This document shows, piece by piece, positions 1 through 12,645 of a DNA stretch of 12,645 nt. The position numbers were made by a program, and so were the translations under genes. The number at the start of each line of letters is the position of its first letter. Positions within the stretch are counted from its first letter, which is position 1. Source of the DNA: Planctomycetota bacterium (GTDB lineage: Bacteria; Planctomycetota; B129-G9). Under the pieces are notes generated by a model, which was not told where the DNA came from, ran no database searches, and saw nothing but the letters and a program-made list of their open reading frames with translations. The DNA lies in NCBI GenBank assembly GCA_003644325.1, contig QNCA01000009.1, positions 1 through 12,645 on the forward strand, given 5' to 3'.

Positions 1-1
1 A

Positions 2-916
2 GTCAGGTCCTCCGCCGCGAGGCGGCGTTTCGCCCGCGACAAGGAGGTGCTGAAATCCCTGGGCATATCCATCGAATACGTCCCCCGCAACAGCCTGGAC
101 ACGGGCGGATACTACATACGACGCGAGTCATTCGCCCACCCCGCCATTCACCTGACGGCGGAACACCGACGCTTGCTGGCCTGTCTCCACACAACGGCGG
201 CTCTGGAAAGCAACAGCCCCGTCCTGGGTCCGCTGCTGTCGGCCTTGCAGAAACTGCGCTTCGACGACACGCCGTACGACGTTCCACGGACGGATGACCA
301 CCTGCCGGTGTTCAAACTCGGCGCGGACGAACAGCCGTCGGTGCGCGCCAACCTGGCGGCCTTGATTAACGCGGCCAGGGCTTGCAAGATAGTCACTTTT
401 TACTATCACAGTATGCACAGGGACGACGTCGGCCGGCGCGCCGTCGAGCCTTACGGGACCTTCCTGCGGGAAGGCAAGTGGTATCTCGTCGGCAGGTGTA
501 CGGTGAAACAGGCGATAAGGCTCTTCCGCCTGGACAGGATCATGACGCAGGTGCAGGTAAACAGGGGAAACCCGGGCCGGGCCGATTTCAAGCGCCCGCG
601 CGGCTTCCGCCTGAAGAAATACCTTGGTGTCCTGCCGTGGGAGAAAGGCCCGAAGCCGGAAACGAAGAAACTCTACGATGCGAAAATCACATTCGATGAC
701 GAAGTCTGGTGGATGGCGCGCGAGTCGCTTGCGGCCTCGACCTGCCGGGTCAGCGCAAAAACCGGAGGGGTCGTTGTAAGCATGCCGGTGTACCGCGAGG
801 AGCCTCTTATCAGATGGCTGCTCAAGTTCGGCCCGCACGCCGTCGTCACGTCGCCGAAGCGTCTCAGGAATCTATTGATTGATACCGTAAAGAAAATCAG
901 GCAAAGGCACACGTGA
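2..916 (+). CDS. WYL-domain transcriptional regulator (5' end off the window; PafB-like member of a tandem pair)
   Basis: The frame is open to the left edge. The residues before the first possible start (GTG at 47) read RRFARDKEVLKSLGI, the usual junction between the N-terminal winged helix and the rest of a WYL regulator, so the DNA-binding domain lies off the window and GTG 47 is probably internal. In the visible 304 residues the WYL domain spans about 127-180, with the signature WYLVG at 160-164 followed by RLFRLDRI. The C-terminal WCX-type region ends with WLLKFGPHAVV and a basic helix. WYL domains are ligand- or nucleic-acid-sensing modules of DNA-binding regulators. The next WYL gene begins within 34 bp, matching the tandem arrangement of actinobacterial PafB and PafC, which act as a heterodimer in the DNA-damage response. 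That function is not shown here, and regulators of phage-defence or metabolic genes share the same architecture. Confidence 0.9.
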   Translation, partial: VRSSAARRRFARDKEVLKSLGISIEYVPRNSLDTGGYYIRRESFAHPAIHLTAEHRRLLACLHTTAALESNSPVLGPLLSALQKLRFDDTPYDVPRTDDHLPVFKLGADEQPSVRANLAALINAARACKIVTFYYHSMHRDDVGRRAVEPYGTFLREGKWYLVGRCTVKQAIRLFRLDRIMTQVQVNRGNPGRADFKRPRGFRLKKYLGVLPWEKGPKPETKKLYDAKITFDDEVWWMARESLAASTCRVSAKTGGVVVSMPVYREEPLIRWLLKFGPHAVVTSPKRLRNLLIDTVKKIRQRHT

Positions 917-949
917 CAGATGCCCCCCTTATGCAACAGGAAAAGAAAG

Positions 950-1933
950 ATGCAGCCGGATGAAACAAAAAAGAGGCTGGGCAGAATCCTGAACCTTGTG
1001 CCGCTCGCCGCAAAACGACGCGGCGCGGACCTGCTGGAACTCGCCGACTACCTCGGCTGCGGCATCGACGAACTGGTGCGGGACGTGCACGCTCTCATAA
1101 TGTGCGGCGTGCCGCCGTACTCTCCCAGCGACTACGTCCAGGCGTACGTCGAGGACGGCCGCCTGCACATCAACTTCCCGGGCGGATTTAAGCGCCCGGT
1201 GCGTCTCTCGGCGGATGAACACGCCGCCCTGCAATGCGCGCTGATGCAGGCGGAGCGGGCCGCAGGGCCGGGCGGCGCCCCGGACATAAGGGAACTGATG
1301 CGCAAGTTGGCCGTACGCCGCAGCGGACGCAGGGTCAGGGACAAGGACTACGTGTACTGCACCGTCCAGGTCAAAATGCCGAAGAAGAAGCGCGCCGTCC
1401 TGCAACAGGCCATCGACCGACAGAAGGAACTGATAATCGAGTACCACTCCCTGCGCAGCGGCGTCACCACACGGCGGCGCGTGCGGCCTTACGCGCTCCT
1501 TGCGCGCAGCCACCGCTGGTACCTCGTCGCCTACGACAAAAAACACCGCAAGACCATTCCCTTTCGCGGCGACAGAATAAGACACGCCTCCATCACGGAC
1601 ACCGACTTTCAGCGCCCGGAATATTTCGACCTGACGGAATACCTCGAAGGCAGGATGTATATCAACGCCAGGCCCACGATGAGCGTGAGGGTGCGGTTCG
1701 GTCCGGAGTACGCCCGGTTCATCGCTGAGAAGTACCCACCCGAAGCCTTGCAAAAGCGTGGGGGCGGCTGCATCGACCTGCGGCTGGACACCGACAGCCT
1801 GAACTGGGCGGCCCGTTGGGTGCTCAAGCACGGCCCTTACGCCACCGCGCGAGAACCGAAAGAACTGCGCCGCGAGATAGTCCGCGCCTGCGACAAAATC
1901 CTCGAAGCATACGGCGACGGTGACTGTCACTAA
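950..1933 (+). CDS. WYL-domain transcriptional regulator (PafC-like partner)
   Basis: This 327-residue protein has three parts. An N-terminal helix-turn-helix-like region (about 8-55) resembles the atypical HTH of PafC proteins. The WYL domain (about 155-215) carries WYLVAY at 190-195 and RGDRI at 206-210. A WCX-type C-terminal region (about 243-320) ends in WVLKHGPYA and a basic helix. I chose ATG 950 because AGGA lies 8 bases upstream; ATG 920, ten codons earlier in the same frame, is also possible but has a poorer ribosome site. Either start lies within 34 bp of the first WYL stop, so the two are almost certainly co-transcribed and may heterodimerise. The last six codons (GDGDCH) and the TAA lie in the left arm of the palindrome starting at 1918, so the natural C-terminus may have been replaced by repeat sequence. 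Confidence 0.9.
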   Translation: MQPDETKKRLGRILNLVPLAAKRRGADLLELADYLGCGIDELVRDVHALIMCGVPPYSPSDYVQAYVEDGRLHINFPGGFKRPVRLSADEHAALQCALMQAERAAGPGGAPDIRELMRKLAVRRSGRRVRDKDYVYCTVQVKMPKKKRAVLQQAIDRQKELIIEYHSLRSGVTTRRRVRPYALLARSHRWYLVAYDKKHRKTIPFRGDRIRHASITDTDFQRPEYFDLTEYLEGRMYINARPTMSVRVRFGPEYARFIAEKYPPEALQKRGGGCIDLRLDTDSLNWAARWVLKHGPYATAREPKELRREIVRACDKILEAYGDGDCH

Positions 1934-1971
1934 CTACGGAATCTCGCGGGCCTGTCGAGCGAGATTCGTAG
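1934..1971. repeat. Stem-loop just after the second WYL gene
   Basis: CTACG plus AATCTCGC (1934-1947, with G1939 bulged) pairs with GCGAGATTCGTAG (1959-1971), giving 13 base pairs around an 11-base loop. It begins at the base after the stop codon. There is no following T-run, so it is not a canonical rho-independent terminator. It is better explained as the core of the outer palindrome, though it could still protect the 3' end of the WYL mRNA. Confidence 0.7.
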
Positions 1972-1973
1972 AT

Positions 1974-2143
1974 TACTCAAGTTGACTGACTTTTCCTGAG
2001 CGATGGCGGGTGCTTGGTTATAATCTACCGTCTCATACCTTACGGTGACAGTCACCAATCTGCGATCCGTTCCGACAAGGTCGGAACGGATCCGTAATTG
2101 GTGACAGTCACCGAGGTTAACAAAAAGTCAGTCAACTTGAGTA
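1974..2143. mobile_element. MITE-like element, copy 1 (carries an inner palindrome)
   Basis: This non-coding element of about 170 bp is bounded by perfect 21-bp terminal inverted repeats: TACTCAAGTTGACTGACTTTT (1974-1994) and its complement (2123-2143). GATTA occurs directly on both sides (1971-1975 and 2144-2148). It looks like a target duplication of 3-5 bp, although TA at the inverted-repeat ends leaves the exact border ambiguous. The body holds GATGGCGGGTGCTTG (2002-2016), TATAAT (2019-2024) and GTTAAC near the right end. Copy 2 at 12525-12637 matches this body but lacks the 56 bp at 2057-2112. Size, inverted ends and lack of coding capacity fit a non-autonomous element moved in trans. 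The transposase family cannot be told from the window. Confidence 0.8.
2044..2112. repeat. Inner REPIN-like palindrome inside MITE copy 1
   Basis: Two direct copies of GGTGACAGTCACC (2044-2056 and 2100-2112) flank a perfect 13-bp stem, GATCCGTTCCGAC (2064-2076) with its complement (2080-2092), around the loop AAG. The whole 69-bp unit is close to a palindrome. In MITE copy 2 the corresponding site has one GGTGACAGTCACC (12596-12608) and nothing else, so 56 bp were gained here or lost there. The architecture repeats that of the outer palindrome, with an unrelated stem sequence. Confidence 0.8.
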
Positions 2144-2170
2144 GATTAGTGACTGTCACCGATGCAATCA

Positions 2171-2764
2171 CTACGGCCTGATGGCGCGGAATTCGTCGCG
2201 CAGCCTTTTGTGGGCATAGAAAAGGACGACAGATAGCCCGTAAAGTGCGACAAAGGCATAGAACACGACGAGCAACATATTCGGGGTTTTTACCGTCAGG
2301 AAAAGCACGACCGGCCATACCGCGCCGCGTAAAATGCCGAGAACCCCGCCGTAGATGAGTCCCTTCCTCGCCCATCTCTTGAACGTGACAGCGCCGATGC
2401 CGCAGATGAAAAGGACGACGTCCGCCAGGTGCCACAGCGCGAGGCCGACGACGGACATTATTACGGCATCGGCGTCGGCGGTCTGCAGGCGGGGCGTTCC
2501 GGTAATACCGAGAACGGTGATTATTCCCAGGAGCGCGGACACCGCGACAACGGCCCTTCCGGCCATGGGGTAGATCCAGTCCCCCCTTGCCTCGTCGCTT
2601 CGCAGGCGGACAAAACAATCCCCGCAATAATATTCGCCGTAGTAGAAGTACTTGCAGTCGTAACAGAGATACGCGCCGCAGGTCTTACACCGGACCTCGG
2701 CGGGCTGCTCGGGGTGAAACTTGCAGTAGCGCGTTTCGGGCGCTGGCGTGTTAGGGGCGATCAA
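2171..2764 (-). CDS. B-box-like zinc-finger protein with four membrane segments, function unknown
   Basis: The 197-residue product opens with a compact zinc-binding motif: C14-x2-H17, C26-x2-C29, C34-x2-C37 and C47-x2-C50, resembling a B-box-type finger. Four hydrophobic segments follow, at about 68-90, 103-125, 135-157 and 161-184, and a short basic tail. It is therefore an inner-membrane protein with a soluble metal-binding head. The start is TTG 2764: a TGA lies two codons upstream in frame, the nearby ATG (2771-2769) is out of frame, and GGAG sits 8 bases upstream of the TTG. It lies 59 bp downstream of the carboxypeptidase on the same strand and may share its transcript. Its stop is 10 bp from the repeat block at 1918-2161. 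I do not recognise a specific family and assign no function. Confidence 0.8.
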   Translation of the reverse strand: MIAPNTPAPETRYCKFHPEQPAEVRCKTCGAYLCYDCKYFYYGEYYCGDCFVRLRSDEARGDWIYPMAGRAVVAVSALLGIITVLGITGTPRLQTADADAVIMSVVGLALWHLADVVLFICGIGAVTFKRWARKGLIYGGVLGILRGAVWPVVLFLTVKTPNMLLVVFYAFVALYGLSVVLFYAHKRLRDEFRAIRP

Positions 2765-2823
2765 TAATCATGCTCCGGTTTGCCGGTAATGTCGCGTTTC
2801 ACGGGCGGCAACAGTCGTTCCGG

Positions 2824-4647
2824 TCATCTTCGCGCCGTGTCGCCGGCGAGTTCGGCCTGGTTGATCGGCGCCCTTTCGTAACGGCCGCACTCATAATTGA
2901 GCCACATGCCTTCACCGGCGAGATAGACCGGGCGCGTGGCCGGCCGCAGGTCCGGGGCAAAGCCGATGCCGTCGGTCGCCCCGATCACCACGGCGCCACG
3001 CGAGAAGTCAAAGTGCGCATCGTCATGTATCGAGATTACTCCCGTGAACGTATCATTCCCGTAGCGTGTTCTGGTCCAGGCTCCCGGGCCGACCAGGCGA
3101 TGAAGCCGGCCGAGCCTGTCGAGCAATTTGAGGCGTGAGACCCCTGCATCCTCCTCGGGTACCATCCTGTGCTCTCTTGAGAGAAGCATCGGCTTGTTGA
3201 ATACCAGCGTCACCACGGCCCTGCCCTGCTTCAGTTCGCCGGAATTTCTCGCCACTTTTGTCTCTCCGCCGTATGACTGGGTCATCTGGAAGACCTCGCG
3301 GCCGTCCTGCCGCACGGTAATCTGCCGGACGCACCCCGGGCCCGTGGCCCAGTCGGCGGCGAAAAGAAAGGCATTGAAGTTCTCCAAAGCAACCGGAACG
3401 ATTTGATGCGGGTCCAGCATGAAGCCGGAACCCGTGAGATACCGCCGCACGGAAAAAGAAGGAGAAAGTTCCACGCAGAGAGACATGATTCCCCGTGAGC
3501 CGTAAAAAAAGTCAACACTGCTGCCGGTGATCGGCTCAAGGTATAACTGGCTGCCCTGGCTGTGCCGGTATCGCCTGCCGAACCCCGGAATGGCGGCGGT
3601 TCGCCTGTGCCGGTTGATAAGGTGGGCCATGCCCCCGGCGAGGAATTCATAAGTCTCATAATCCTTCCGCGGCCTTTCCCTCTTATATGCGTGAGGGTAG
3701 AGTATCTTTTCGCTGAATGAATGATAGTCGATATACAGGACGAAGTTGTGCGCCGGGTCGTCTACGAGTGTGATAAGCGCGCGAATTTCCTTCTCTGTTT
3801 CCTTTGGTCGAGTGGGGTCGTCGGGATGCGGCGCGCCCCTGTAGAATTTGCTGGAGGTGTCGTCACTGCCGCCGATGTCATCACCGATAAGATGCGGCAT
3901 GTCACCGGACAGACGCCACTCGTAGGGATAGTTGCGGTTCAAATCGACGCCGACCTGCCCGTCGGGCAGCGGCCGCCTGTTCTTGCGCCACAGGCGATGG
4001 CCTCTGTCCGGCTCCTCCTGGGAGTAAACGAAACCGTCGGGATTGACGACGGGCACTATCCATATCTCGGTGTTATCGACGATGTACCTGACATAATCGT
4101 CGGTTTCATAGTCTTCCAAGAGGCGCTTCGCGAAATACATCGCGGTTTCTATTCCTATCCATTCGCACGCATGCACACCGCCCGTTACCAGGATATCCGG
4201 CTTGACCGGGTCATCTTTTGAGGCATTGCGGCTGATCTTGATTGCGTAGATGGGGCGGCCTTCCCAGGACTTGCCGATTTTATCGATCTTCGCGAGGTCT
4301 TTCGCGTGCAGACCGTATCGCCGCTGCCATTGACTGAGGGTTTGCAGGATTTCGTCGAAGGTATGGAAGTCGGATTTGAATTCGCGGCGGGCCTCCGGTG
4401 ACAGCCCGGTATTCAGGGGTGTAAGGTAAGCACACCCCGCACCTGCCGCCATGCAGACCATCAACAGTGCGCACAACGAAACAGCCGGATCCGCCGAACG
4501 GGCGATTCTTGACCCCACGGGCGGAAAAAGGCGGCTGGAAAGTGACAAATTTGGCGCCCGAACCTGACGATTTTTGTCACTTTGGCTCTCTTCGCGTTTT
4601 GCCCGGGACTCCCGGCCCATAGCCCGATTTCTGCCATACGTCAACAT
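2824..4647 (-). CDS. Exported M14-family zinc carboxypeptidase with a C-terminal extension
   Basis: The 607-residue product has a basic leader, a hydrophobic segment (about 55-70) ending GAGC that suggests a signal peptide or a poorly matching lipobox, a peptidase domain (about 93-435) and a beta-looking extension of about 165 residues. M14 landmarks are visible: the zinc ligands H159 and E162 in GGVHACEW, NPDGF at 202-206, RLWRKNRR at 218-225, GVDLNRNY with N237/R238, the third zinc ligand H309 in DYHSFSEKILYP, and the catalytic glutamate E393 in CVELSP. M14 enzymes remove C-terminal residues from peptides or act on peptidoglycan peptides; the substrate here is unknown. ATG 4647 is preceded by GGAGAGTGAGAG. 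The leader before the hydrophobic segment is unusually long, so a later start such as the GTG for residue 44 is possible. Oddity: the HARE arginine is Cys161. Confidence 0.92.
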   Translation of the reverse strand: MLTYGRNRAMGRESRAKREESQSDKNRQVRAPNLSLSSRLFPPVGSRIARSADPAVSLCALLMVCMAAGAGCAYLTPLNTGLSPEARREFKSDFHTFDEILQTLSQWQRRYGLHAKDLAKIDKIGKSWEGRPIYAIKISRNASKDDPVKPDILVTGGVHACEWIGIETAMYFAKRLLEDYETDDYVRYIVDNTEIWIVPVVNPDGFVYSQEEPDRGHRLWRKNRRPLPDGQVGVDLNRNYPYEWRLSGDMPHLIGDDIGGSDDTSSKFYRGAPHPDDPTRPKETEKEIRALITLVDDPAHNFVLYIDYHSFSEKILYPHAYKRERPRKDYETYEFLAGGMAHLINRHRRTAAIPGFGRRYRHSQGSQLYLEPITGSSVDFFYGSRGIMSLCVELSPSFSVRRYLTGSGFMLDPHQIVPVALENFNAFLFAADWATGPGCVRQITVRQDGREVFQMTQSYGGETKVARNSGELKQGRAVVTLVFNKPMLLSREHRMVPEEDAGVSRLKLLDRLGRLHRLVGPGAWTRTRYGNDTFTGVISIHDDAHFDFSRGAVVIGATDGIGFAPDLRPATRPVYLAGEGMWLNYECGRYERAPINQAELAGDTARR

Positions 4648-4671
4648 CTCTCACTCTCCATCTTCACCATG

Positions 4672-4700
4672 ATTGTGCCACAAACTTCGGACGATTTCAA
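4672..4700 (-). promoter_or_regulatory. Candidate sigma-70 promoter for the carboxypeptidase
   Basis: Read on the minus strand, TTGAAA (4700-4695) and CACAAT (4677-4672) are separated by exactly 17 bp. The predicted start near 4665 leaves a short leader of about 18 bases containing the GGAGAG ribosome site before ATG 4647. The -35 matches five of six consensus bases and the -10 four of six. Confidence 0.5.
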
Positions 4701-4881
4701 GCGAAATAAATTCACGCGGGCCTTAAGCGCCCGTGTTCGAGTCCGCCTGTTTACGCCCGGTTAACTTGTGCCACTTCCCATTTGGCTGAACTCGGAGCAA
4801 AATTGGTGCCGGAGTTGCACTTTCTGAATGTCACCCGGCCGCCCCGGGAATTCCTCCCTACCCTCTTTTCCGAGAATATCC

Positions 4882-4909
4882 TTGACTGGCGCCCTTCGCG
4901 GCGCATAAT
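4882..4909 (+). promoter_or_regulatory. Candidate sigma-70 promoter for guaBA
   Basis: TTGACT (4882-4887) and CATAAT (4904-4909) are separated by 16 bp. Transcription would start near 4916 and leave a leader of about 93 bases before the guaB ATG. Each box is one base from consensus. Confidence 0.55.
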
Positions 4910-5008
4910 GATAGAGCACATCCAGGTATCATACCCGCGGTTTCATAGATAGGCTCTCGGTTGCCCCGTAAGCCTTCGGCCTATTCCCGTTTTTTGAGGC
5001 AGGTAAAC

Positions 5009-6511
5009 ATGAGCAACCCTCACCCTATACCCGCAGGCAAGACCGGAACACGTCCGATAGACGGGATAACCTTCGACGACGTGCTCATCGTGCCGAAGAG
5101 GTCCGACGTAATCCCGCTGGATGTCGGCACCGGCACCCTGCTGACCAGGAACATAACCTTGAACATACCGATTGTCTCGGCGGCGATGGACACCGTGACC
5201 GACGCGCGCCTGGCCATAGCGCTGGCGCAGGAGGGCGGCCTGGGAATAATCCACCGCAACCTGGACATAGCCCGCCAGGCCAATGAAGTGCGCAAGGTAA
5301 AGCGCTCGGAGGCCGGCGTCATTACCTCGCCGGTGACCCTTACACCCGACGCCACTATCGAAAAGGCGCGCGAACTGATGGCCCGCCACAACATATCCGG
5401 CCTGCCGGTGCTGGACGGCGGCAAACTCGTCGGCATAATCACGCGCCGCGACCTGCGCTTCCACAAAGACACCGCCAGCAGGGTGGATCGCATCATGACC
5501 ACGAAACTTATCACCGCGCCGCCGGAGACCACCACCGAACAGGCCATGGACATCCTGCACCGGAACAAGGTGGAAAAACTCCTTCTCGTGGACAATGCTA
5601 TGCGACTGAGAGGCCTCATCACCATAAAGGACATAGACAAGATGGCGCAGTACCCCAACGCCTGCAAGGACGTGTACGGCAGGCTGCGCTGCGGGGCCGC
5701 CGTGGACACCGGCGACTACGAGCGCATCGAAAAACTCATCGAAGCGGGCGTGGACGTCATCGCAGTGGATAAGGCACACGGCCATTCCACCCGTGTCATC
5801 GAAACCATCCGCGAGATAAAAAAACGGTACAACGTGGAGTGCATCGCGGGCAACGTCGTCACGGCCGAGGCGACAAAGGATTTGATAGATGCCGGGGCCG
5901 ACGGCATCAAGGTGGGGGTGGGGCCGTCGGCCATCTGTACCACGCGCATCGTCGCGGGCGTGGGCGTACCGCAGATAACGGCCATCATGAACGCGGTCTC
6001 CGTGGCGGACGCCGCCGGGGTGCCGGTCATCGCCGACGGCGGCATACGTTACTCCGGCGACATATCCAAGGCCGTCGCGGCGGGCGCCCACTGCGTGATG
6101 ATAGGCACGCTGCTGGCGGGCACCGAGGAAAGCCCCGGAGAGACTATCCTCTTCCAGGGCCGCACCTACAAAATCTGCCGCGGCATGGGTTCGCTGGGGG
6201 CGATGGTCGAAGGCAGCAAGTCGCGCTACTCACAGGAAGGTATCAAGATAAAAGACAAACTCGTCCCGGAAGGCATAGAAGGCCGCGTGCCGTACAAGGG
6301 GCCGCTCTCGCGGCTCGTCTATCAACTGGTCGGCGGTCTTCGAGCGACGATGGGCTACACCGGCGCGCGCAACATAGAGGAGTTGCGCCGCAACGTCGAG
6401 TTCGTCCGGGTAAGCCCCGCGGGACTGGCCGAGAGCCACCCCCACGACATCACCATAACCAAGGAGGCGCCCAACTACACCTTCAAGGAAAGCCCGTCCC
6501 ATGAAGCGTGA
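5009..6511 (+). CDS. guaB: Inosine-5'-monophosphate dehydrogenase
   Basis: This enzyme oxidises IMP to XMP with NAD+, the first committed step of guanine nucleotide synthesis, in the cytoplasm. From ATG 5009, with GAGGCAGG just upstream, it has 500 residues, close to the usual length of about 490. The TIM barrel is interrupted by two CBS domains (about 103-215). Landmarks include [20 protein letters not shown] near 58-77, AHGHS at 256-260, the catalytic Cys310 in [18 protein letters not shown] at 343-351, GMGSLGAM at 392-399, the flap R406-Y407, and [18 protein letters not shown] at 4961 would add 16 residues unlike the family and has no ribosome site. Residues usually DTAHGHS and PGSIC read DKAHGHS and PSAIC here. 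The 3' end overlaps guaA by 11 bp, so the two genes form an operon, probably translationally coupled. Confidence 0.97.
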
Positions 6512-8045
6512 CGAATGGATAGCGGTCCTGGATTTCGGCTCGCAGTACGCGCAACTCATCGCGCGGCGCGTGAGGGAACTCAACGTTTACAGCGAAATAA
6601 TCCGCTGCAATACCCCCGCCGCGGAAATCAAGAAGCGCGCCCCGAAGGGAATCATCATGAGCGGCGGGCCGGCCAGCGTCTATGCCCCGGGCGCTCCGCA
6701 ATGCGACAGGGAAATCCTCAACCTCGGCATCCCCACCCTCGGCCTCTGCTACGGCATGCAAATCGGCTGCACCTGCCTCGGCTGCAAGGTCACACCCGCA
6801 GAAGCGCGCGAGTACGGCCGCCGTGAAATCGAAATCGTCGAAGAAGAACCGCTTTTCAAGGACCTGGGCAAGAAACTCACCGTCTGGATGAGCCACGGAG
6901 ACCAGGTCCGCGACGCGCACGACGACCTTATCACCCTGGCCTCCACGCCCACCTGCACCCATGCCGCCGTCCGGCACAAGTCCGTGCCGTTCTACGGGCT
7001 GCAATTTCACCCCGAGGTGACGCACACGCCGAGGGGCATGGAAGTCATGCGGAACTTCCTGTACGGCGTCTGCGGCTGCAAGGGCACATGGAAAATGTCG
7101 TCGTTCGTCGAGGAGACCGTCAGGCGCATCCGCGAGCGCGTGGGCGACAAGAAAGTCGTCCTGGGCTTGAGCGGCGGGGTCGATTCGTCCGTCGTCGCCT
7201 GCCTACTGCAAAAGGCCGTCGGCGAGCAACTGGAGTGCATCTTTGTCGATAACGGCCTTCTGCGCAGGGGAGAGTTCCAACAGGTCGTGCGCGACTTCCA
7301 TGATAACTATCACGCCAAACTTCATGCCGTCGATGCATCAAAGCGGTTTCTTGATGCGCTGGAAGGCGTCGAGGACCCGGAGAAGAAACGCAAGATAATC
7401 GGCGCACTCTTCATAGAGGTTTTCAAAGAAACGGCGGAGAAGATAAAGGACGCCCGCTTCCTGGCACAGGGCACGATATACCCCGATGTCATCGAGTCAT
7501 CCTCGCCGGTCGGCGGGCCGAGCGCCACCATCAAGAGCCATCATAACGTCGGCGGCCTGCCGGAGCAACTGGGCTTCGAGTTGATAGAGCCGATGCGCGA
7601 ACTCTTCAAAGACGAAGTCCGCCGCCTCGGCGAGGAACTCGGCATGAAGCACGAGCAAATCTGGCGGCATCCCATCCCCGGGCCCGGCCTGGCGATACGC
7701 TGCCTCGGCGCGGTGACGAAAGAGAAACTCGCCATACTGCGCGAGGCGGACTACATCCTCATCGAAGAGTTGCGCAAGAGCGGCTGGTACGACAGGGTCG
7801 CCCAGGCATTCGCCGTGATCCTGCCCGTCAAGTCGGTGGGTGTAATGGGCGATGAGCGAACCTACGAACACGTTATAGCGCTTCGCGTAATCGACACGGT
7901 CGATTTCATGACCGCCGACTTCTCGCGTCTCCCACACGAACTGCTCGGCGGAATCTCCAGCCGCATAATCAACGAGGTCCGCGGCGTCAACCGCGTCGTT
8001 TACGACATCTCCACCAAGCCCCCCTCCACCATTTGCTGGGAGTAA
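6501..8045 (+). CDS. guaA: GMP synthase (glutamine-hydrolysing)
   Basis: This enzyme converts XMP to GMP using ATP and glutamine, the step after guaB. The 514-residue protein has both expected halves. The class I glutamine amidotransferase domain (about 6-195) carries the nucleophile Cys83 in GLCYGMQ and the His170/Glu172 dyad in QFHPEV. The ATP pyrophosphatase domain has the P-loop SGGVDSS at 224-230, followed by [11 protein letters not shown]. The C-terminal dimerisation and XMP-binding part contains [11 protein letters not shown] and ends [16 protein letters not shown], matching the family ending. Length is normal and no frameshift is seen. ATG 6501 lies inside guaB, with AAGGA about 12 bases upstream, consistent with coupling. 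An oddity is the cysteine-rich stretch after the nucleophile (C90, C92, C95, then C191 and C193), where relatives usually have few cysteines. Confidence 0.97.
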
Positions 8046-8106
8046 GGACCTCGACGGAAACGTTTCGGCGGATAGAACACGCGGGGAGGAGCAGCGGGGA
8101 GGAGGA

Positions 8107-8135
8107 AGGCCGTCCCGATTTATCGGGATCGGCCT
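8107..8135 (+). terminator. Hairpin downstream of guaA, possible weak terminator
   Basis: AGGCCG (8107-8112) pairs with CGGCCT (8130-8135), and inside it TCCCGAT pairs with ATCGGGA around a two-base loop, with T8129 bulged. The stem is strong, but no T-run follows, so it may end guaBA transcription only partly or act as a 3' stabiliser. Confidence 0.45.
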
Positions 8136-8143
8136 GACGGGAG

Positions 8144-8157
8144 GGGGCTGACTCCCC
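8144..8157. repeat. GGGG-CTGA-CCCC palindrome family, copy 1
   Basis: GGGGCTGACTCCCC resembles the inverted complement of the palindrome at 12289-12307 (GGGGTCAGCCCC). The two copies sit in different intergenic gaps, in opposite sense, which suggests a small dispersed palindromic repeat. Confidence 0.45.
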
Positions 8158-8245
8158 GAGTGCGAAAAACCACTTTCCGCAACAGGAACCAATCAGGCGG
8201 TCATACTTGAATCTGCGTAATCTGTGGATTTCTTTGAAATTGGCC

Positions 8246-8274
8246 TTGACAATCGGCCTTTCGCAGGATATAAT
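8246..8274 (+). promoter_or_regulatory. Perfect-consensus sigma-70 promoter
   Basis: TTGACA (8246-8251) and TATAAT (8269-8274) are separated by exactly 17 bp, matching consensus at all twelve positions. It is the best promoter in the window. No gene starts soon after it. The first intrinsic terminator follows about 125 bp later, so its direct product is predicted to be a short RNA beginning near 8281. Confidence 0.8.
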
Positions 8275-8280
8275 CAACGG

Positions 8281-8410
8281 GCGTGAAGTAAGATAGAGTA
8301 TAGAAAATTTAGTCAATGGGATTTCGGTGATGGCAGGTGCTTGCACAACCCGGGAAACACCAGAGCGGATCTCTGTGCCGTAATATGCAGGGAGTCCGCT
8401 TTTTTATTTT
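8281..8410 (+). ncRNA. Candidate small RNA (or terminated leader of the PEP-CTERM gene)
   Basis: The interval runs from the predicted start of a consensus promoter to the T-run of an intrinsic terminator, about 128 bases. I could not match it to 6S, SRP, tmRNA, RNase P or a riboswitch I know. Possible local helices include GUGC-GCAC near 8336-8347 and the terminator itself. It contains GATGGCAGGTGCTTG (8329-8343), shared with one or two mismatches by both MITE-like copies. A 17-codon frame, ATG 8330 to TAA 8383, starts within that motif and stops in the terminator loop. It has no clear ribosome site, so I do not call it a gene, but a leader peptide that affects the hairpin cannot be excluded. 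The next gene starts 320 bp downstream on the same strand. Confidence 0.55.
8364..8410 (+). terminator. Intrinsic terminator of the candidate small RNA
   Basis: AGCGGATCTCTG (8364-8375) pairs with CAGGGA plus TCCGCT (8388-8400), giving 12 pairs with one wobble and G8394 bulged, around a 12-base loop. It is followed by TTTTTATTTT (8401-8410), a typical rho-independent terminator. Confidence 0.8.
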
Positions 8411-8550
8411 GTCCCGTGAAATGGAAAATCAATTAAGGACATGAAAACGTTAAAGGTGGGTTCCCCCGCGAGAACCTCGGGGAAACAATCTTGTCGATTT
8501 CGACTAAATCTGTCGGACGGGAATTGTGGTGATTCTTGCGGTGCGGACAA

Positions 8551-8566
8551 TGTGTCTGATTACACA
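8551..8566. promoter_or_regulatory. CRP/FNR-shaped palindrome upstream of the PEP-CTERM gene
   Basis: TGTGT-CTGATT-ACACA has the 5-6-5 layout of CRP/FNR-family operators. It is bracketed by direct copies of GCGGACAA (8543-8550 and 8570-8577). A TATAAT lies at 8598-8603, which would put the palindrome centre roughly 50 bp upstream of the transcription start. I see no good -35 for that -10, as expected for an activated promoter. The regulator is unknown. Confidence 0.35.
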
Positions 8567-8729
8567 CCCGCGGACAACGGAGAGCGGGCCGCAGGGCTAT
8601 AATATGCCCACCGCCCCCTTTTCCTTTGCCCCCGCCATCACCCGTCCGGAAAGGAGGTAAGTCGCAAAAAAAATTACAGATTATTCGCGTTCGTAACTGA
8701 ACCTTAGTGATTTTGCCAAGGAGGTTGTC

Positions 8730-10619
8730 ATGAATATGAAAAATTTGGGAGTATTTGCTTTTGCTGTCGCGATCTCCCTTGCCTTGGCTACGGCTGCCGA
8801 TGCACTGGTCGTTACAGACCTCGACACGGGCCTGACGGTGCCAAATCTCAACTGGATCATCGTCAACGACGCGTCAGTAACAACGTATGGGGCGAACAAT
8901 GACAACTACAACATTAAGGTAGGCACGGCCAACTGGGGCGCGAACGAATGGGATTTGCAGCCTCGTGTTTGGCACTCCGCGGGAACGGTGCTGCCCGGAA
9001 ATCTAAATGGATACCGGGCGGATTTCACCTACGACCTGTATACGTGGGATTCTTATAATCCGTGGAACGCGCCGCAGAAGGGCTACTGGGACAACTTCGG
9101 AGTGGAACTGGACAACACTTCGTATCTGTGGAATCGAGTGCCGGCCGTCTCCGACCCAATGGCGGCGGGCGCCAATCACTGGATACAGGGCGGTACCACA
9201 TGGGGCGACGGGATTTGCGAATACTACGGCGGAAACGCCTCAGTCACAATCGCCGGCGCAGGGACCGGCAACACGACATACCTCTCGGTGTACCTGTCGA
9301 CCGATGTGGATCCCCATCGTGACCGACTGTTCCCATCGTGGGGTGAATTCAACAGGGAAGAAACATCGGGCGAACCTGGAGACGGGTGCGGACAGTCCTT
9401 CTGGAAGACCCCGAAACTATACGCCCCCCACTTCTCCGTCGACAACGGCGCACTGGGATTGCCCACTCCTATGCCCAACGACGTATGGACGCTCGGAGCC
9501 GGTGACAACCACGGAGAAATCTTCCAGTCGCCGGGAGACAACACCAACTTCCGCGTCATCCGCGGTATCGACATGGGCTTGTGGTCTGACCAAGACACTC
9601 CGATCACCGACACGGCCGAAGACAACATCGATGCCATCTCTTATGCCAATGATTATTTTTACATCAAAGAGATAAACGAGTACGAGTATGAACCCATCGT
9701 AACTATTGGCGGGGCTGAGGTTGCTTTCTCGGTAAATCCGCTTACGTTGGGTATAGCGGGAACAGCGGTGAACGTTGAAGCACTGAGCGGCACACCGCCC
9801 AATCCGCCGGGCGAAGCCCACGGCGATATCTTCCACGCCTGCTGGTCAGCCCCGCCGGGGAGCGGTTGCCCGGGTGGTAATTCCCTGCTCTGGGATGACA
9901 ACACGAACCTCGGTCTAGATGCGCCTGATAAACCTGACGACGTCGACGCACTAGAAAACACTATCTTAGTGGACGGGGTCGTGGGCTGGATCCCTGGCGT
10001 CCTCTTCTCGGTGGACCGGTTCGCCGTCGGGGCTCCAAACACGGCCGTCAACGTACAGGCCACATTCAACGAAGCCGCCGCCGACGTCTTCTACACCGAC
10101 CTGAGCGGCCAGAACTGGCTGTTCATTGACGAGGCCGGTCTGGGACTGTTTGCCGATGGAACCGGAGCGCAGGACGAACTCGACGCTTTAATGTTCTATG
10201 TGAGCCCCGAATATGATGATTTCCTGCGCCAGCGCATTGAGGAGATCATCCAGGGCGACTACACTGAGGAACCCATCATTGCCGACTGGATGGCCCAGGA
10301 GAACTATGATTACTATCTCCAGGAGGGCGAGTTCCTGTTTGGGTTCCTGTTCTCCGTCGAAGACGGTTCGATGGGCCTGCCCGGCACGGCGGTTAACTGG
10401 GAGGCTAATACAGACTCCTCCGAACAGGCGGACGTATTCTTTTCATTCGGCAATGGGATGAACTACCTGTTCGCCGAAGAATGCGACCTCGGACTGCTCA
10501 TCACCGACGAACTGAACGCGCTGGACAACAACGCGATAATCCCCGAGCCGGCCACGATTGCGCTTGTCTGCTTCGGGCTGGTCGGCCTGGCGGGCGCGGT
10601 CCGCAGGAAACTGCGTTAA
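8730..10619 (+). CDS. Secreted PEP-CTERM protein with four degenerate internal repeats
   Basis: The 629-residue protein has an N-terminal signal peptide (basic start, hydrophobic 7-20, likely cleavage after the ADA near 23-25) and a C-terminal PEP-CTERM sorting signal: PEP at 605-607, a hydrophobic segment to about 623, then RRKLR. PEP-CTERM tails are processed by an exosortase at the membrane; no exosortase is in the window. The start is supported by AAGGAGG five bases before ATG 8730. Residues about 28-230 form a tryptophan- and tyrosine-rich domain without a motif I recognise. From 235 on come four units starting FSV and ending in a D-x-L/I-D/N-A-L-like segment. The whole protein is acidic with few cysteines, typical of an extracellular or biofilm-matrix protein. 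I cannot assign a ligand or enzyme activity. Confidence 0.88.
   Translation: MNMKNLGVFAFAVAISLALATAADALVVTDLDTGLTVPNLNWIIVNDASVTTYGANNDNYNIKVGTANWGANEWDLQPRVWHSAGTVLPGNLNGYRADFTYDLYTWDSYNPWNAPQKGYWDNFGVELDNTSYLWNRVPAVSDPMAAGANHWIQGGTTWGDGICEYYGGNASVTIAGAGTGNTTYLSVYLSTDVDPHRDRLFPSWGEFNREETSGEPGDGCGQSFWKTPKLYAPHFSVDNGALGLPTPMPNDVWTLGAGDNHGEIFQSPGDNTNFRVIRGIDMGLWSDQDTPITDTAEDNIDAISYANDYFYIKEINEYEYEPIVTIGGAEVAFSVNPLTLGIAGTAVNVEALSGTPPNPPGEAHGDIFHACWSAPPGSGCPGGNSLLWDDNTNLGLDAPDKPDDVDALENTILVDGVVGWIPGVLFSVDRFAVGAPNTAVNVQATFNEAAADVFYTDLSGQNWLFIDEAGLGLFADGTGAQDELDALMFYVSPEYDDFLRQRIEEIIQGDYTEEPIIADWMAQENYDYYLQEGEFLFGFLFSVEDGSMGLPGTAVNWEANTDSSEQADVFFSFGNGMNYLFAEECDLGLLITDELNALDNNAIIPEPATIALVCFGLVGLAGAVRRKLR
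9432..10529 (+). repeat. Four degenerate protein repeats coded within the PEP-CTERM gene
   Basis: Units lie at protein residues 235-304, 333-409, 426-488 and 541-600. Shared landmarks are FSV, a glycine-rich LG-x-PGTAVN segment (unit 1 lacks TAVN), a DIF/DVF strand, an N-x-LF-type strand, LGL, and a closing DELDAL-like motif. Acidic, tyrosine-rich linkers separate units 1-2 and 3-4. The DNA copies are too diverged to look like recent duplications. Confidence 0.7.
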
Positions 10620-10778
10620 AGACAGTAGGCAGCAGGAAAGCCACCGCTTCGCTTACAGGCGCGGTAGGCGAGTAGGAAAGGGATTTGATATTAGGACAGG
10701 GCAGAGTACTATTGTCCGATTCAGTCTCCCTCGGCAGGTCTCGGGACAGGCGATACAAGTCCCTGTTGATGAAAGAAG

Positions 10779-10810
10779 GGCGGCCCCGATATATCGGGGC
10801 CGCCTTTTTT
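10779..10810 (+). terminator. Strong intrinsic terminator between convergent genes
   Basis: Bases 10779-10804 form a perfect palindrome (11-bp GC-rich stem, loop TATA) followed by TTTTTT. It lies 160 bp after the PEP-CTERM stop. On the minus strand the hairpin is followed by a pyrimidine-rich stretch with fewer Ts, so it may also serve the opposing membrane-protein gene. Confidence 0.85.
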
Positions 10811-10892
10811 GGGCGGACGGACAAATTGAAGGCGTTCCTTTTCCACAATCCACAGTCCACAATTGTTCTTTCTACCGGGACGGGATAGGCTC

Positions 10893-12173
10893 TCAGTCAT
10901 CGTAGCGCGTTCTGTTCTCGTTCCCACCCTGGGGAGTATCGCTGTAAAGCGGGTTGGGCAGATTCCACTCATCACGCAGTCGGCGGATTTCCACTTCGAT
11001 TTCTCGCAATCTTGTTATAAGTGCGTCGGCCCTTTCACGCGTCTCCCGCAGGTTGCCCTCGTTTCTATGAAGTTTCCATTCCAGGTTGCGCTTTTTGACC
11101 TCCAGAATCGCCTTCGCATCCTCATCGGTTGTTTCCATCTTTTCGGTTATTTCATCTATCTTTTGGCGTTGCAGCGGCATCGCCCCGCTCAGCGTATCCA
11201 TCTGTTTTAACGTATCCTCTTTTTCCTGGAGTACTCCATGGTACTCTAGCGCCAGGGAAGCCAGTTGCCGCCTGGCGCGCTCTCTCGGGAGGGGCGTGGC
11301 ACCTGTCAATTCGCCGATATTCAGAACCACCGATGAATAGAAGTCTCTCTGGCCCGCCGGGCGAATGATCTGAAAATCGAGCCGGTCTCTTCCCATGTAA
11401 GGCCGCAATGCCCAGGCGAGTTGAATTCCGACCAGCGCGTAGGCCAGCATCCACAGGAAGAGCACGAAGCGGCTTTTCGGCCTGACGCCGGATTCCTTCT
11501 CGCGCTTTCTGGCAAGGAATTTGCTCCCGCGGGCCAGATACGCAAGACCCACCAGCCCCGACAGGCCCAGTATCACGATGTTCACAAGCATAAGAAGGTT
11601 ATAACGCGACGCGCCCCGGCTTATGGTGATAAGGCAGAAACCCGTAATCGGAGCCATACACACGAGTACGAGGGACGTAGCGCAAACGCTCATCACAAAA
11701 AGTCCCAGCATCTGCCGGAAATATACACGAAGATTCAGAAGAATCCCTATCAGGTACAACGTGGGCAGCAAGACGGCGAGGGATATCATGAAAACCAGGG
11801 GCAGTTTGACCATGCTGGAGATGCTCTGCCGCGGGAAGTGGTTGTACGTGCCCATGACAAAACCGTATATCATGAAGCAGACCAGCGCCACCAGGGCCAT
11901 CTGTGCGATGAACTTGTAGGATGCCCTGTCGTCCTTGATATCGAAGTAGAGCGCATCGCGCAGACGCAGGACCCTGGGAATGATGCTGAAGAAACCCTCG
12001 CCGATCTTTTCATCTACGGGCGGCTCGTCCGGTATGTCGTCCTTTTCAGGCTTTGAAGTGAATTGTGCCCGGCCGTACGGGTCCTGCTGAGCGTGCGGCC
12101 CTTGCTGCCACATCTGCCCGGGCGGGGGTTGATGCGGTGCCTGGCCCGGGCGGTCGTTGGGGTTGTCTGCCAT
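10893..12173 (-). CDS. Membrane protein with Pro/Gln-rich head and C-terminal coiled coil, function unknown
   Basis: From ATG 12173, with GGAGG seven bases upstream, the product has 426 residues. A Pro/Gln-rich, disordered head (1-55) precedes at least five hydrophobic segments, at about 87-109, 122-147, 156-184, 192-214 and 236-255. The last ends in QLAWALRPYMG, a motif I recall from conserved but unnamed membrane proteins in planctomycete-like genomes. A charged region at about 298-402 has heptad-like spacing and should form a coiled coil, followed by a polar tail. The topology suggests an inner-membrane protein with a long cytoplasmic or periplasmic rod, perhaps a scaffold or envelope-organising protein; this is inference. 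A TTG at 12203 would add ten residues but ignores the excellent GGAGG site. Its 3' end faces the PEP-CTERM gene. Confidence 0.82.
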   Translation of the reverse strand: MADNPNDRPGQAPHQPPPGQMWQQGPHAQQDPYGRAQFTSKPEKDDIPDEPPVDEKIGEGFFSIIPRVLRLRDALYFDIKDDRASYKFIAQMALVALVCFMIYGFVMGTYNHFPRQSISSMVKLPLVFMISLAVLLPTLYLIGILLNLRVYFRQMLGLFVMSVCATSLVLVCMAPITGFCLITISRGASRYNLLMLVNIVILGLSGLVGLAYLARGSKFLARKREKESGVRPKSRFVLFLWMLAYALVGIQLAWALRPYMGRDRLDFQIIRPAGQRDFYSSVVLNIGELTGATPLPRERARRQLASLALEYHGVLQEKEDTLKQMDTLSGAMPLQRQKIDEITEKMETTDEDAKAILEVKKRNLEWKLHRNEGNLRETRERADALITRLREIEVEIRRLRDEWNLPNPLYSDTPQGGNENRTRYDD

Positions 12174-12288
12174 GTCAGATCCTCCATCAAATGTTATGCG
12201 CAATTTTGCAAATTACTTTCTTTGTCAGGTTAAACGGATGGAGGAACGGTTTGGTTTTGCCGTGCAGCCAAAAAGGGAACCCGCACTC

Positions 12289-12307
12289 AAAGGGGTCAGC
12301 CCCCTTT
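12289..12307. repeat. GGGG-TCAG-CCCC palindrome family, copy 2
   Basis: AAAGGGG (12289-12295) pairs perfectly with CCCCTTT (12301-12307) around TCAGC. It is related in inverted sense to the shorter palindrome at 8144-8157. It is not followed by a T-run beyond its own arm. Confidence 0.55.
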
Positions 12308-12346
12308 AGATATTACGGCGAATCCGGTCTATATTACTTCCGCAAC

Positions 12347-12410
12347 CGCCAAGAGCGCCAAGAACGCCAAGAGAAATAGCCGCAGATAAACGCGAGATGA
12401 ACGCAGATGA
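12347..12410. repeat. Short tandem motifs: CGCCAAGAN x3, then GCAGAT-type units
   Basis: Three contiguous 9-mers CGCCAAGAG, CGCCAAGAA and CGCCAAGAG fill 12347-12373. After a short gap come CGCAGATAAA, CGCGAGATGAA and CGCAGATGA (12381-12410). A related tract, seen in inverted sense as CCACAGATTACGCAGAT, lies at 8211-8230. They look like non-coding low-complexity repeats common to this genome. Confidence 0.65.
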
Positions 12411-12524
12411 TAACTTCCGCACCTCTACACCCCTATACCTCGATACTTATTTTTCCACAGATTTCACCGATTGCGTTTATCCCGAGGCAGTTTCGAGGGG
12501 CAGATTGAAGCGAAAATCAATTTA

Positions 12525-12637
12525 CTCAAGTTGGCTGACTTTTTCTGGATGATGGTGGGTGCTTGATTATAATGTGCTGTTTCACAACACCTTACGGTGA
12601 CAGTCACCGAGGTTAACAAAAAGTCAGCCAACTTAAG
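12525..12637. mobile_element. MITE-like element, copy 2 (without inner palindrome)
   Basis: The 113-bp element has 20-bp terminal inverted repeats with one mismatch: CTCAAGTTGGCTGACTTTTT (12525-12544) and the complement at 12618-12637. The body carries GATGGTGGGTGCTTG (12551-12565), TATAAT (12568-12573), CTTACGGTGACAGTCACCGA and GTTAAC, in the same order as copy 1. No clear target duplication is visible here, and the window ends eight bases later. Confidence 0.8.
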
Positions 12638-12645
12638 AAACTTAT

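Follow-up and report, generated by a model that had tools for sequence, protein, structure and literature searches.

How does a palindrome come to contain a transposable element that itself contains a second palindrome? The question is raised by a 12,645-nucleotide stretch of DNA from a Planctomycetota bacterium (the window: contig QNCA01000009.1, positions 1 to 12,645, forward strand), in which positions 1918-2161, at the end of a gene for a WYL/PafC-like regulator, form such a three-layer block. The answer that we favor, with good confidence, is that the block consists of two members of one family of repetitive extragenic palindrome (REP) doublets and one miniature inverted-repeat transposable element (MITE), assembled by two unrelated transposition systems. 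The window's own genome, here G000, is a Planctomycetota metagenome-assembled genome (MAG) of 2.28 Mb in 471 contigs, 79.7% complete; G053 denotes a genome of the same genus.

Anatomy of the nested block

The three nested layers are confirmed, and they lie where a sequence-only reading of the window had placed them, with the corrections given below. The features of the block, and a second copy of the MITE in the same window, are as follows.

1918..1975, no strand: left part of the outer REP doublet, with inner end TACGGA and stem AATCTCG..; it closes with the left target duplication
1919-1931: outer left box GGTGACTGTCACT, a 13-bp palindrome
1969..1975, no strand: target-site duplication TAGATTA, left copy, 7 bp
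1976..2141, + strand: MITE, 166 bp, too short for a transposase gene; it holds a REP doublet and aligns with subfamily A
1976..1994, + strand: left terminal inverted repeat CTCAAGTTGACTGACTTTT, common to 1.0-1.4-kb insertion sequences of other Planctomycetota
2044..2056, no strand: inner box 1, GGTGACAGTCACC
2057..2099, no strand: hairpin spacer of the inner doublet, 43 bp, stem CCGTTCC..GGAACGG
2100..2112, no strand: inner box 2, GGTGACAGTCACC
2123..2141, − strand: right terminal inverted repeat
2142..2148, no strand: target-site duplication TAGATTA, right copy, 7 bp
2149..2161, no strand: right part of the outer REP doublet, with box AGTGACTGTCACC at 2148-2160
12525..12637, + strand: second MITE copy (copy 2), 113 bp, with a single box (12596-12608) and without the spacer

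Removing the MITE together with one repeat copy joins 1918-1975 to 2149-2161 and, as predicted, restores a near-palindrome of about 71 bp; 52 of the 71 joined positions are self-complementary without gaps, and the RNA fold is −42.8 kcal/mol. The inner near-palindrome, likewise 71 bp (2043-2113), is self-complementary at 58/71 positions and folds at −51.2 kcal/mol, with arms of 34 nt (2043-2076 and 2080-2113) that are 85% complementary. Both palindromes follow one design, as had been noted: two 13-bp dyads, GGTGACWGTCACC with small variations (hereafter boxes), surround a hairpin spacer. Outer boxes also pair with inner boxes in an inverted-repeat search (pairs I4 and I7). The stems of the two are unrelated, again as claimed, yet they have the boxes and TTACGGA/TCGTAGA-like inner ends in common. 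Inner boxes 1 and 2 carry the same central base and are therefore direct repeats as well.

The details that needed correction concern the MITE. A direct repeat does flank it, but it is the 7-bp TAGATTA, of which the GATTA first taken for the target duplication is the last five bases. The inverted ends, 1974-1994 and 2123-2143, are indeed 21 nt long and 100% complementary; the element's own ends are 19 bp, the outer 2 bp belonging to the duplication. The 56-bp difference between the full-length form of the MITE and copy 2 is real and equals the 43-bp spacer plus one 13-bp palindrome, but calling it a gain is not sustained, as copy 2 has probably lost its spacer. The full-length form measures 169 bp in most copies; the nested copy differs from it by another 3 bases, in the left arm, and so measures 166 bp. 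Within the window, Rfam returned no family at gathering score.

The block is composite and not an indivisible unit: palindromes occur outside MITEs, MITEs occur with and without the inner palindrome, and in G053 a relative of the window's outer doublet stands uninterrupted (L318). As had been suggested, two different dispersal systems are involved.

The palindrome family and a RAYT-like transposase

Dispersal of the boxes was borne out by a genome-wide search, in which the core GTGACWGTCAC occurs 528 times in G000 (reversed control, 0), with 97 exact box pairs at a spacing of 25-60 bp. The exact pair is present in 2 of 392 genomes of the phylum, G000 and G053, and in the four genomes of the class the counts of GTGACNGTCAC are 579 (control 1), 13 (0), 4 (0), and 3 (2). 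An exact-pair scan of one genome per species across bacteria and archaea gave at least 106 stretches from many phyla, with Anaerolineae most frequent among the matches listed; about 2 pairs are expected by chance in that collection (our own arithmetic, assuming even base composition).

The behavior of the boxes was counted in 121 unselected contigs of G000 (870 kb). Only 17 of 287 boxes (≤1 mismatch) lie inside open reading frames (ORFs), which by a crude rule cover about 77.5% of these contigs. By gene setting, 28 boxes are divergent, 54 convergent, and 98 tandem, in 76, 76, and 184 gaps, respectively. Runs of boxes spaced 43-72 bp comprise 182 singles, 72 doubles, 13 triples, and 2 quadruples (≤2 mismatches; MITE-borne boxes included). 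In one spacer class, ACGG..CGTAG, the stems of the 28 doublets differ and all fold better than their shuffles, with z-scores of −1.4 to −5.8 and a mean of −3.3 (RNA parameters, single-base shuffles); at least three of these doublets sit inside MITEs (L060, L282, and L308). The central base is the same in both boxes in 42/44 doublets of the GTTCCG-stem class, 18/28 of the ACGG..CGTAG class, and 75/104 overall. The family shows one hallmark of REPINs, many short extragenic palindromes in folding doublets, while the GTAG at the foot of each palindrome that marks GTAG-tagged REPs is absent as a rule, judged by eye.

REPINs come with a gene for a REP-associated tyrosine transposase (RAYT). The sole match to PF01797 (Y1 transposase) in G000 is one gene (L223/L227; the genome being 79.7% complete), and this gene is bracketed by box pairs, at L223 positions 74 and 129 on one side and 855 and 910 on the other, so that it combines low copy number with flanking by its own REPs. 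Its frame is open (226-234 aa) and scores 52.4 bits against PF01797 (cut-off 23), a Y1_Tnp domain with both the HuH motif (HVH at 60) and Y---NP (YVECNP at 120). The boxes in its flanking doublets have central bases A..T. A homologue in G053 with 58% identity is flanked by a sister palindrome, GGGGACAGTCCCC. The G000 repeat GGTGACAG is one base off the motif GGGGWSAS, and the G053 homologue has GGGGACAG. G053 also carries a longer RAYT paralogue of 352 aa (L225, contig G053:C261), which matches a DnaA model at residues 254-343 and lacks a long shared flanking repeat; with its DnaA-like C-terminal stretch it resembles subclass 2.1 of PMC6006769.

The linkage holds beyond the genus. We collected 32 RAYT loci of the phylum, 30 among the matches listed (from 77 of 392 genomes) and 2 from the PF01797 search. 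A repeat of at least 14 bp is common to both flanks within 250 bp at 20/32 loci, compared with 1/868 cross-locus pairs, and GG[GT]G[AT][CG]A[CG] lies on both sides at 14/32, compared with 0.5 in single-base shuffles. Among the at least 106 cross-phylum loci, all five RAYT-like ORFs are bracketed by dyads (within 400 bp, one mismatch allowed) vs 5/659 other ORFs of 150-300 aa. The five are from Fibrobacteria (L138), Bacteroidota (L153), and Chloroflexota (L147, L122, and L185); L138 is not independent, being the source of the idea and one of the four queries. On a tree of 33 RAYT proteins, the GTGACWG label falls on three separate branches (3 changes; shuffled mean 5.7, 2/500 shuffles as low), so this dyad was either retained or arrived at repeatedly. 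We read the palindromes as REP doublets of the REPIN/TIRYT type, and the enzyme to which they most likely belong is a RAYT, a transposase of single-stranded DNA.

One could instead regard the palindromes as operators or architectural sites of a DNA-binding protein, with dyad GTGAC-W-GTCAC, that selection has spread and that stand beside RAYT genes by coincidence. A 13-mer that is a perfect dyad has the usual operator size, the boxes are intergenic and rarer between divergent than between convergent genes, and a same-family genome has four sites and no Y1 match. Such sites would not account for a transposase gene bracketed in G000 and at 5/5 RAYT-like ORFs in other phyla (among the matches listed), for boxes inside MITEs, or for hairpin spacers with conserved inner ends, and we consider this explanation very unlikely.

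Several arrangements of boxes were noted along the way. A tandem array of four dyads lies at L031 5120-5295 (G000:C1), the last three at a 52-bp period with near-identical spacers; a CRISPR-like array was rejected for it, as two spacers are near-identical. Box arrays in G073:C175, Treponema (L173), and Bacteroidetes (L117) brought integron-like cassettes to mind, a reading dropped, without a search for an integrase or attC core sites, once boxes were seen on both sides of a RAYT gene, first in L138 and then in G000. In Anaerolineae MAG loci such as L123, L202, and L219, GTGACAGTCAC/GTGACTGTCAC doublets lie inside an outer inverted repeat of the GTAACTACTCAG..CTGAGTAGTTAC kind (by eye), a similar two-layer design in another phylum. 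A text search of 5.39 million open-access papers, the only literature covered, found the box core in the primers of one paper, and no other title listed is about repeats. A MITE nested with a REP was likewise not found in the literature search.

The MITE, the order of nesting, and the gene border

The inverted ends that the sequence-only reading singled out are indeed dispersed: the 19-bp end (≤3 mismatches) matches 184 times on the + and 199 times on the − strand, with no control hit. The survey covers 138 sequences (911 kb): the 121 unselected contigs and 17 loci chosen because they matched the loaded block, i.e. the MITE with its inner doublet. Adjacent ends form 57 pairs, 42 of them 164-174 bp and 6 of them 112-113 bp long. 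Of the 53 copies whose flanks could be used, 24 are bordered by exact direct repeats, 12 of them 7 bp and 12 of them 6 bp long, compared with 21/2756 exact 6-7-bp repeats in mismatched flanks; in the unselected contigs the figures are 19/38 and 4/1406. The element has the marks of a MITE: terminal inverted repeats, a target duplication, and a lack of coding capacity. Its ends lie within 250 bp of 45/240 contig ends vs 7/480 random inner stretches, which indicates that the assembly breaks at MITEs and that the copy numbers are lower bounds.

MITE ends with at most two mismatches occur in 25/392 genomes of the phylum; some of these genomes also have control hits, so single two-mismatch matches may be due to chance. 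In three genomes (G387, G156, and G144), facing ends bound elements of 1.0-1.4 kb with matches to DDE_5 or DDE_Tnp_1. The transposases are closest to IS701 models but below cut-off, the best reaching 155.7 bits where NCBIfam requires 170. In G156 the gene is split between two reading frames, and TAAGATA flanks the G387 element on either side. No autonomous partner of the MITE was seen by end spacing in the loaded contigs, nor among the longest ORFs of four same-genus loci with similar ends.

The MITE is found next to boxes far more often than chance would place it. A box lies within 22 bp outside 29 of the 182 ends that have at least 40 bp outside them, vs 0.45% of 20,000 random positions, about a 36-fold excess (unselected contigs: 24/148 ends), although the 29 are partly non-independent. 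Six lie in one outer context, with a subfamily-B MITE (by eye), and for 10 a further MITE end follows at most 110 bp outside; these may descend from few nested copies. These same ends would fit a larger element, in which outer box and MITE move as a unit and the REP beside the MITE ends is a part and not a target. Yet the remaining box-adjacent ends have differing outer flanks, 153/182 ends have no box within 22 bp, and exact 6-7 bp duplications occur at other sites; a single larger element is, in our judgment, highly improbable, and the REP is better taken as a landing site.

The proposed order of events was outer palindrome, then MITE, then inner palindrome. Its first step stands, the MITE having most likely entered an older outer palindrome, whereas the last is not supported. 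Among the subfamily-A frames of the 121 unselected contigs, 26/31 have the GTTCCG spacer, i.e. the inner stem, four have a single box, and one is a tandem form; with the 17 loci picked for the loaded block, 43/48 are loaded. Four subfamily-B frames were counted, two with the AATCTCG spacer (whose stem type is that of the outer palindrome in the window) and two with a single dyad, and a further one (L314) has a two-hairpin spacer beyond the length limit of the count. Frames with a missing or shortened left arm (31/83 rows) were set aside, some of their single-dyad calls being artefacts of a loose pattern. We aligned 44 subfamily-A copies, leaving out 13/57 pairs that could not be oriented by motif. 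The four spacer-less copies in this alignment are 1-6 differences from the nearest loaded copy, by a margin of one difference in two of the four, and 5-9 from one another, and they do not cluster. Loaded copy L293_114 lies 2 differences away from the window's copy 2, with which it shares four departures from the consensus. In G053, a MITE-like copy with a recognized left end has a similar GTTCCG stem (L319), and another, of 129 bp, has boxes of the GGGGACTGTCAC type (L262).

Since 26/31 frames are loaded and the spacer-less copies do not cluster, the MITE that entered the outer palindrome probably held the inner one already, and copy 2 probably arose by spacer loss. Because one frame carries several different spacers or none, spacers would also have been gained or exchanged, and, taken across its whole lineage, the MITE may still be older than its spacer. 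Formation of the inner doublet last, at the window locus, after insertion of a MITE without spacer, could draw on the spacer-less copies at separate loci, some with exact duplications, and on the different spacers in the same frame, which require gains in the MITE lineage. It is hard to reconcile with the same stem in most unselected subfamily-A frames, with the unclustered spacer-less copies, and with the similar stem of L319, and we give it little credence.

A further alternative is that the boxes are today only slippage-prone, recombining repeats, whose spacers turn over by replication slippage and gene conversion with no transposase at work. Slippage deletion classically acts on direct repeats around a hairpin, and the 56 bp that distinguish the two MITE forms amount to precisely one spacer and one box, bounded by 13-bp direct repeats with a hairpin between them; one RAYT gene was found vs hundreds of boxes. 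Slippage would account for the loss of spacers; it would not explain how different spacers were gained or how the family first reached hundreds of loci, and an open RAYT frame with its motifs is present. We regard this alternative as possible though doubtful; it is compatible with a RAYT origin of the family.

The border at which the block lies is formed by the following gene.

920..1933, + strand: WYL/PafC-like regulator gene; the outer left box encodes the final four residues, GDCH, and supplies with its last base the first letter of the stop codon TAA (1931-1933)

The orthologue in G053 (72% identity) has a second WYL gene upstream, and its protein ends in ..AAYQSV with its own stop at a locus without a box. 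Of the empty site sought there, the absence of the block was found, but not a clean empty site, because the sequence downstream of the orthologue looks unrelated. For the zinc-finger gene of the other border, a search within the class gave weak matches only. Directly downstream of the WYL orthologue (L324, G053:C74) lies a different palindrome, CTGTCCCCCAAAGGGGTCAGACCCCTTTAGGGGACAG, close to the GGGGACAG repeats of G053's own RAYT and perhaps another REP-like doublet at the same gene end. Two neighboring genes for WYL/WCX-domain regulators lie in the window (2-916 and 920-1933), and two WYL-like genes stand side by side in G053 too. Elsewhere in the window, a 19-bp gapless inverted repeat ending in a T run is positioned like an intrinsic terminator (10773-10810; pair I9), the ORF at 8730-10619 has a C-terminus resembling a PEP-CTERM sorting signal (by eye), and short runs of the CGCCAAGA type at 12337-12400, found also in the flank of a MITE copy in L017, look like another dispersed simple repeat.

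A proposed two-system explanation and its relation to known repeats

From what can be read in the sequences themselves, namely the anatomy, copy numbers, duplication, transposase–palindrome linkage, loaded and unloaded MITE copies, and target bias, we infer the following mechanism. A RAYT-like transposase of the Y1 tyrosine/HuH class would have GGTGACWGTCACC as its REP (or TIRYT-type repeat), with two boxes around a variable hairpin spacer making up a doublet; the RAYT presumably recognizes the folded single strand and moves doublets in trans. The MITE would be related to DDE (IS701/IS4-like) insertion sequences but non-autonomous; it has CTCAAGTTGACTGACTTTT ends, duplicates 6-7 bp of its target, and holds in its middle a REP where a spacer cassette can sit. 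Doublets would thus spread by RAYT-type single-strand transposition and the MITE by a DDE transposase, and at the window locus, where an older doublet lay at the 3′ end of the WYL gene, a doublet-loaded MITE appears to have inserted into that doublet at TAGATTA. Spacer loss would be deletion between the 13-bp direct repeats, by RAYT or by slippage, and spacer gain may come from RAYT action or from recombination between REPs.

A number of observations weigh against this explanation. On the RAYT side, the best model for the G000 protein, NCBIfam REP_Tyr_transpos, scores 66.9 bits, below its cut-off of 80; a PDB sequence search with it gave no match at E 0.1; and 101 of the 106 cross-phylum loci listed (stretches of ≤8 kb) have no RAYT-like ORF. 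In G053, GTGACNGTCAC occurs 13 times, and none of the three Y1 genes there has that box alongside in the stretches read; in the same-family genome it occurs 4 times (control 0), and no Y1 match was found. The assemblies of these two relatives are 73-76% complete. A classical GTAG foot stands 2-3 bases from one box of the ACGG..CGTAG spacers, with a GTAA-like sequence at the other box, and of the four boxes flanking the RAYT gene a single one has GTAG nearby, at a distance of 7 bases (by eye). As the GTGACWG label sits on three RAYT branches, REP sequence does not simply follow RAYT descent, and the simple view that it does is unsupported. On the MITE side, 29/53 copies have no exact duplication, and a DDE partner was not found in G000, in a search with one protein query and no positive control of an assembly 79.7% complete. 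No movement was observed.

The closest known systems each share some of these features. TIRtron/TIRYT repeats flank Y1 transposases as inverted repeats with a GGGGWSAS motif and are of the non-GTAG type (Di Nocera 2013, PMC3733652; subclass 2.1, PMC6006769, 2018). G000 resembles them in having a Y1/TnpA_REP-like gene flanked by self-complementary GG(T/G)GACWG repeats that are also dispersed as single, double, and grouped elements, and the shared RAYT-flank repeats across the phylum follow the pattern of TIRYT genes with GGGGWSAS repeats in these sources and of REPs generally. It differs in its box, GGTGACWG, one base off GGGGWSAS; in its 528 core sites, compared with TIR families called "moderately abundant" in PMC3733652; and in its RAYT, in which Pfam sees Y1_Tnp alone, without the C-terminal helix-turn-helix of subclass 2.1 (PMC6006769).

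REPINs of Pseudomonas (2011, PMC3116915) likewise consist of two REPs about 70 bp apart around a folding spacer, are mostly intergenic and of high copy number, and have a RAYT gene. Their movement has direct evidence in three single reads with an excised doublet and one doublet missing in 200 reads (PMC3116915). Unlike the REPINs described there, the boxes here are perfect 13-bp dyads, direct as well as inverted in 75/104 doublets, the GTAG foot is inconstant, and the doublets ride in a MITE. A second transposon that favors REPs as landing sites recalls the REP-targeting insertion sequences ISPsy8, ISPa11, ISPpu9, and others (Tobes and Pareja 2006, PMC1525189); in contrast to those described, the element here is a MITE, makes a 6-7 bp duplication, and has within it the REP doublet that it targets. 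REP dimers nested in longer palindromes, such as GTAG-15 of Anabaena variabilis and others (PMC3733652), also place a doublet in another palindromic repeat, whereas here the host is a MITE with transposon ends and duplications, found with and without the doublet. The MITE's 19-bp ends are those of IS701/IS4-like DDE insertion sequences with at most one mismatch (NCBIfam NF049999 and NF033540), of which copy L334 has a 7-bp duplication; unlike these, the MITE has no gene.

More tentatively, and on balance we think it unlikely, the two transposons could form a loop of mutual amplification. The RAYT would insert, remove, or exchange hairpin cassettes (spacer plus one box) at a 13-bp docking site, the MITE's REP included, while the MITE would carry loaded REPs to new loci and REP doublets would be its favored landing sites.

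GGTGACWGTCACC is a REP type that recurs beside RAYT-like genes in Planctomycetota, Fibrobacterota, Bacteroidota, and Chloroflexota. G000 bears on the question of how RAYTs spread REPs: its near-identical MITE copies, of which there are dozens, serve as occupied and vacant sites for a single REP spacer whose borders are exact, and an open transposase gene lies beside the same palindrome. If the amplification loop were true, MITE frames with no spacer or with a GTTCCG, AATCTCG, or two-hairpin spacer would be a base-resolution record of the gain and loss of REP cassettes.

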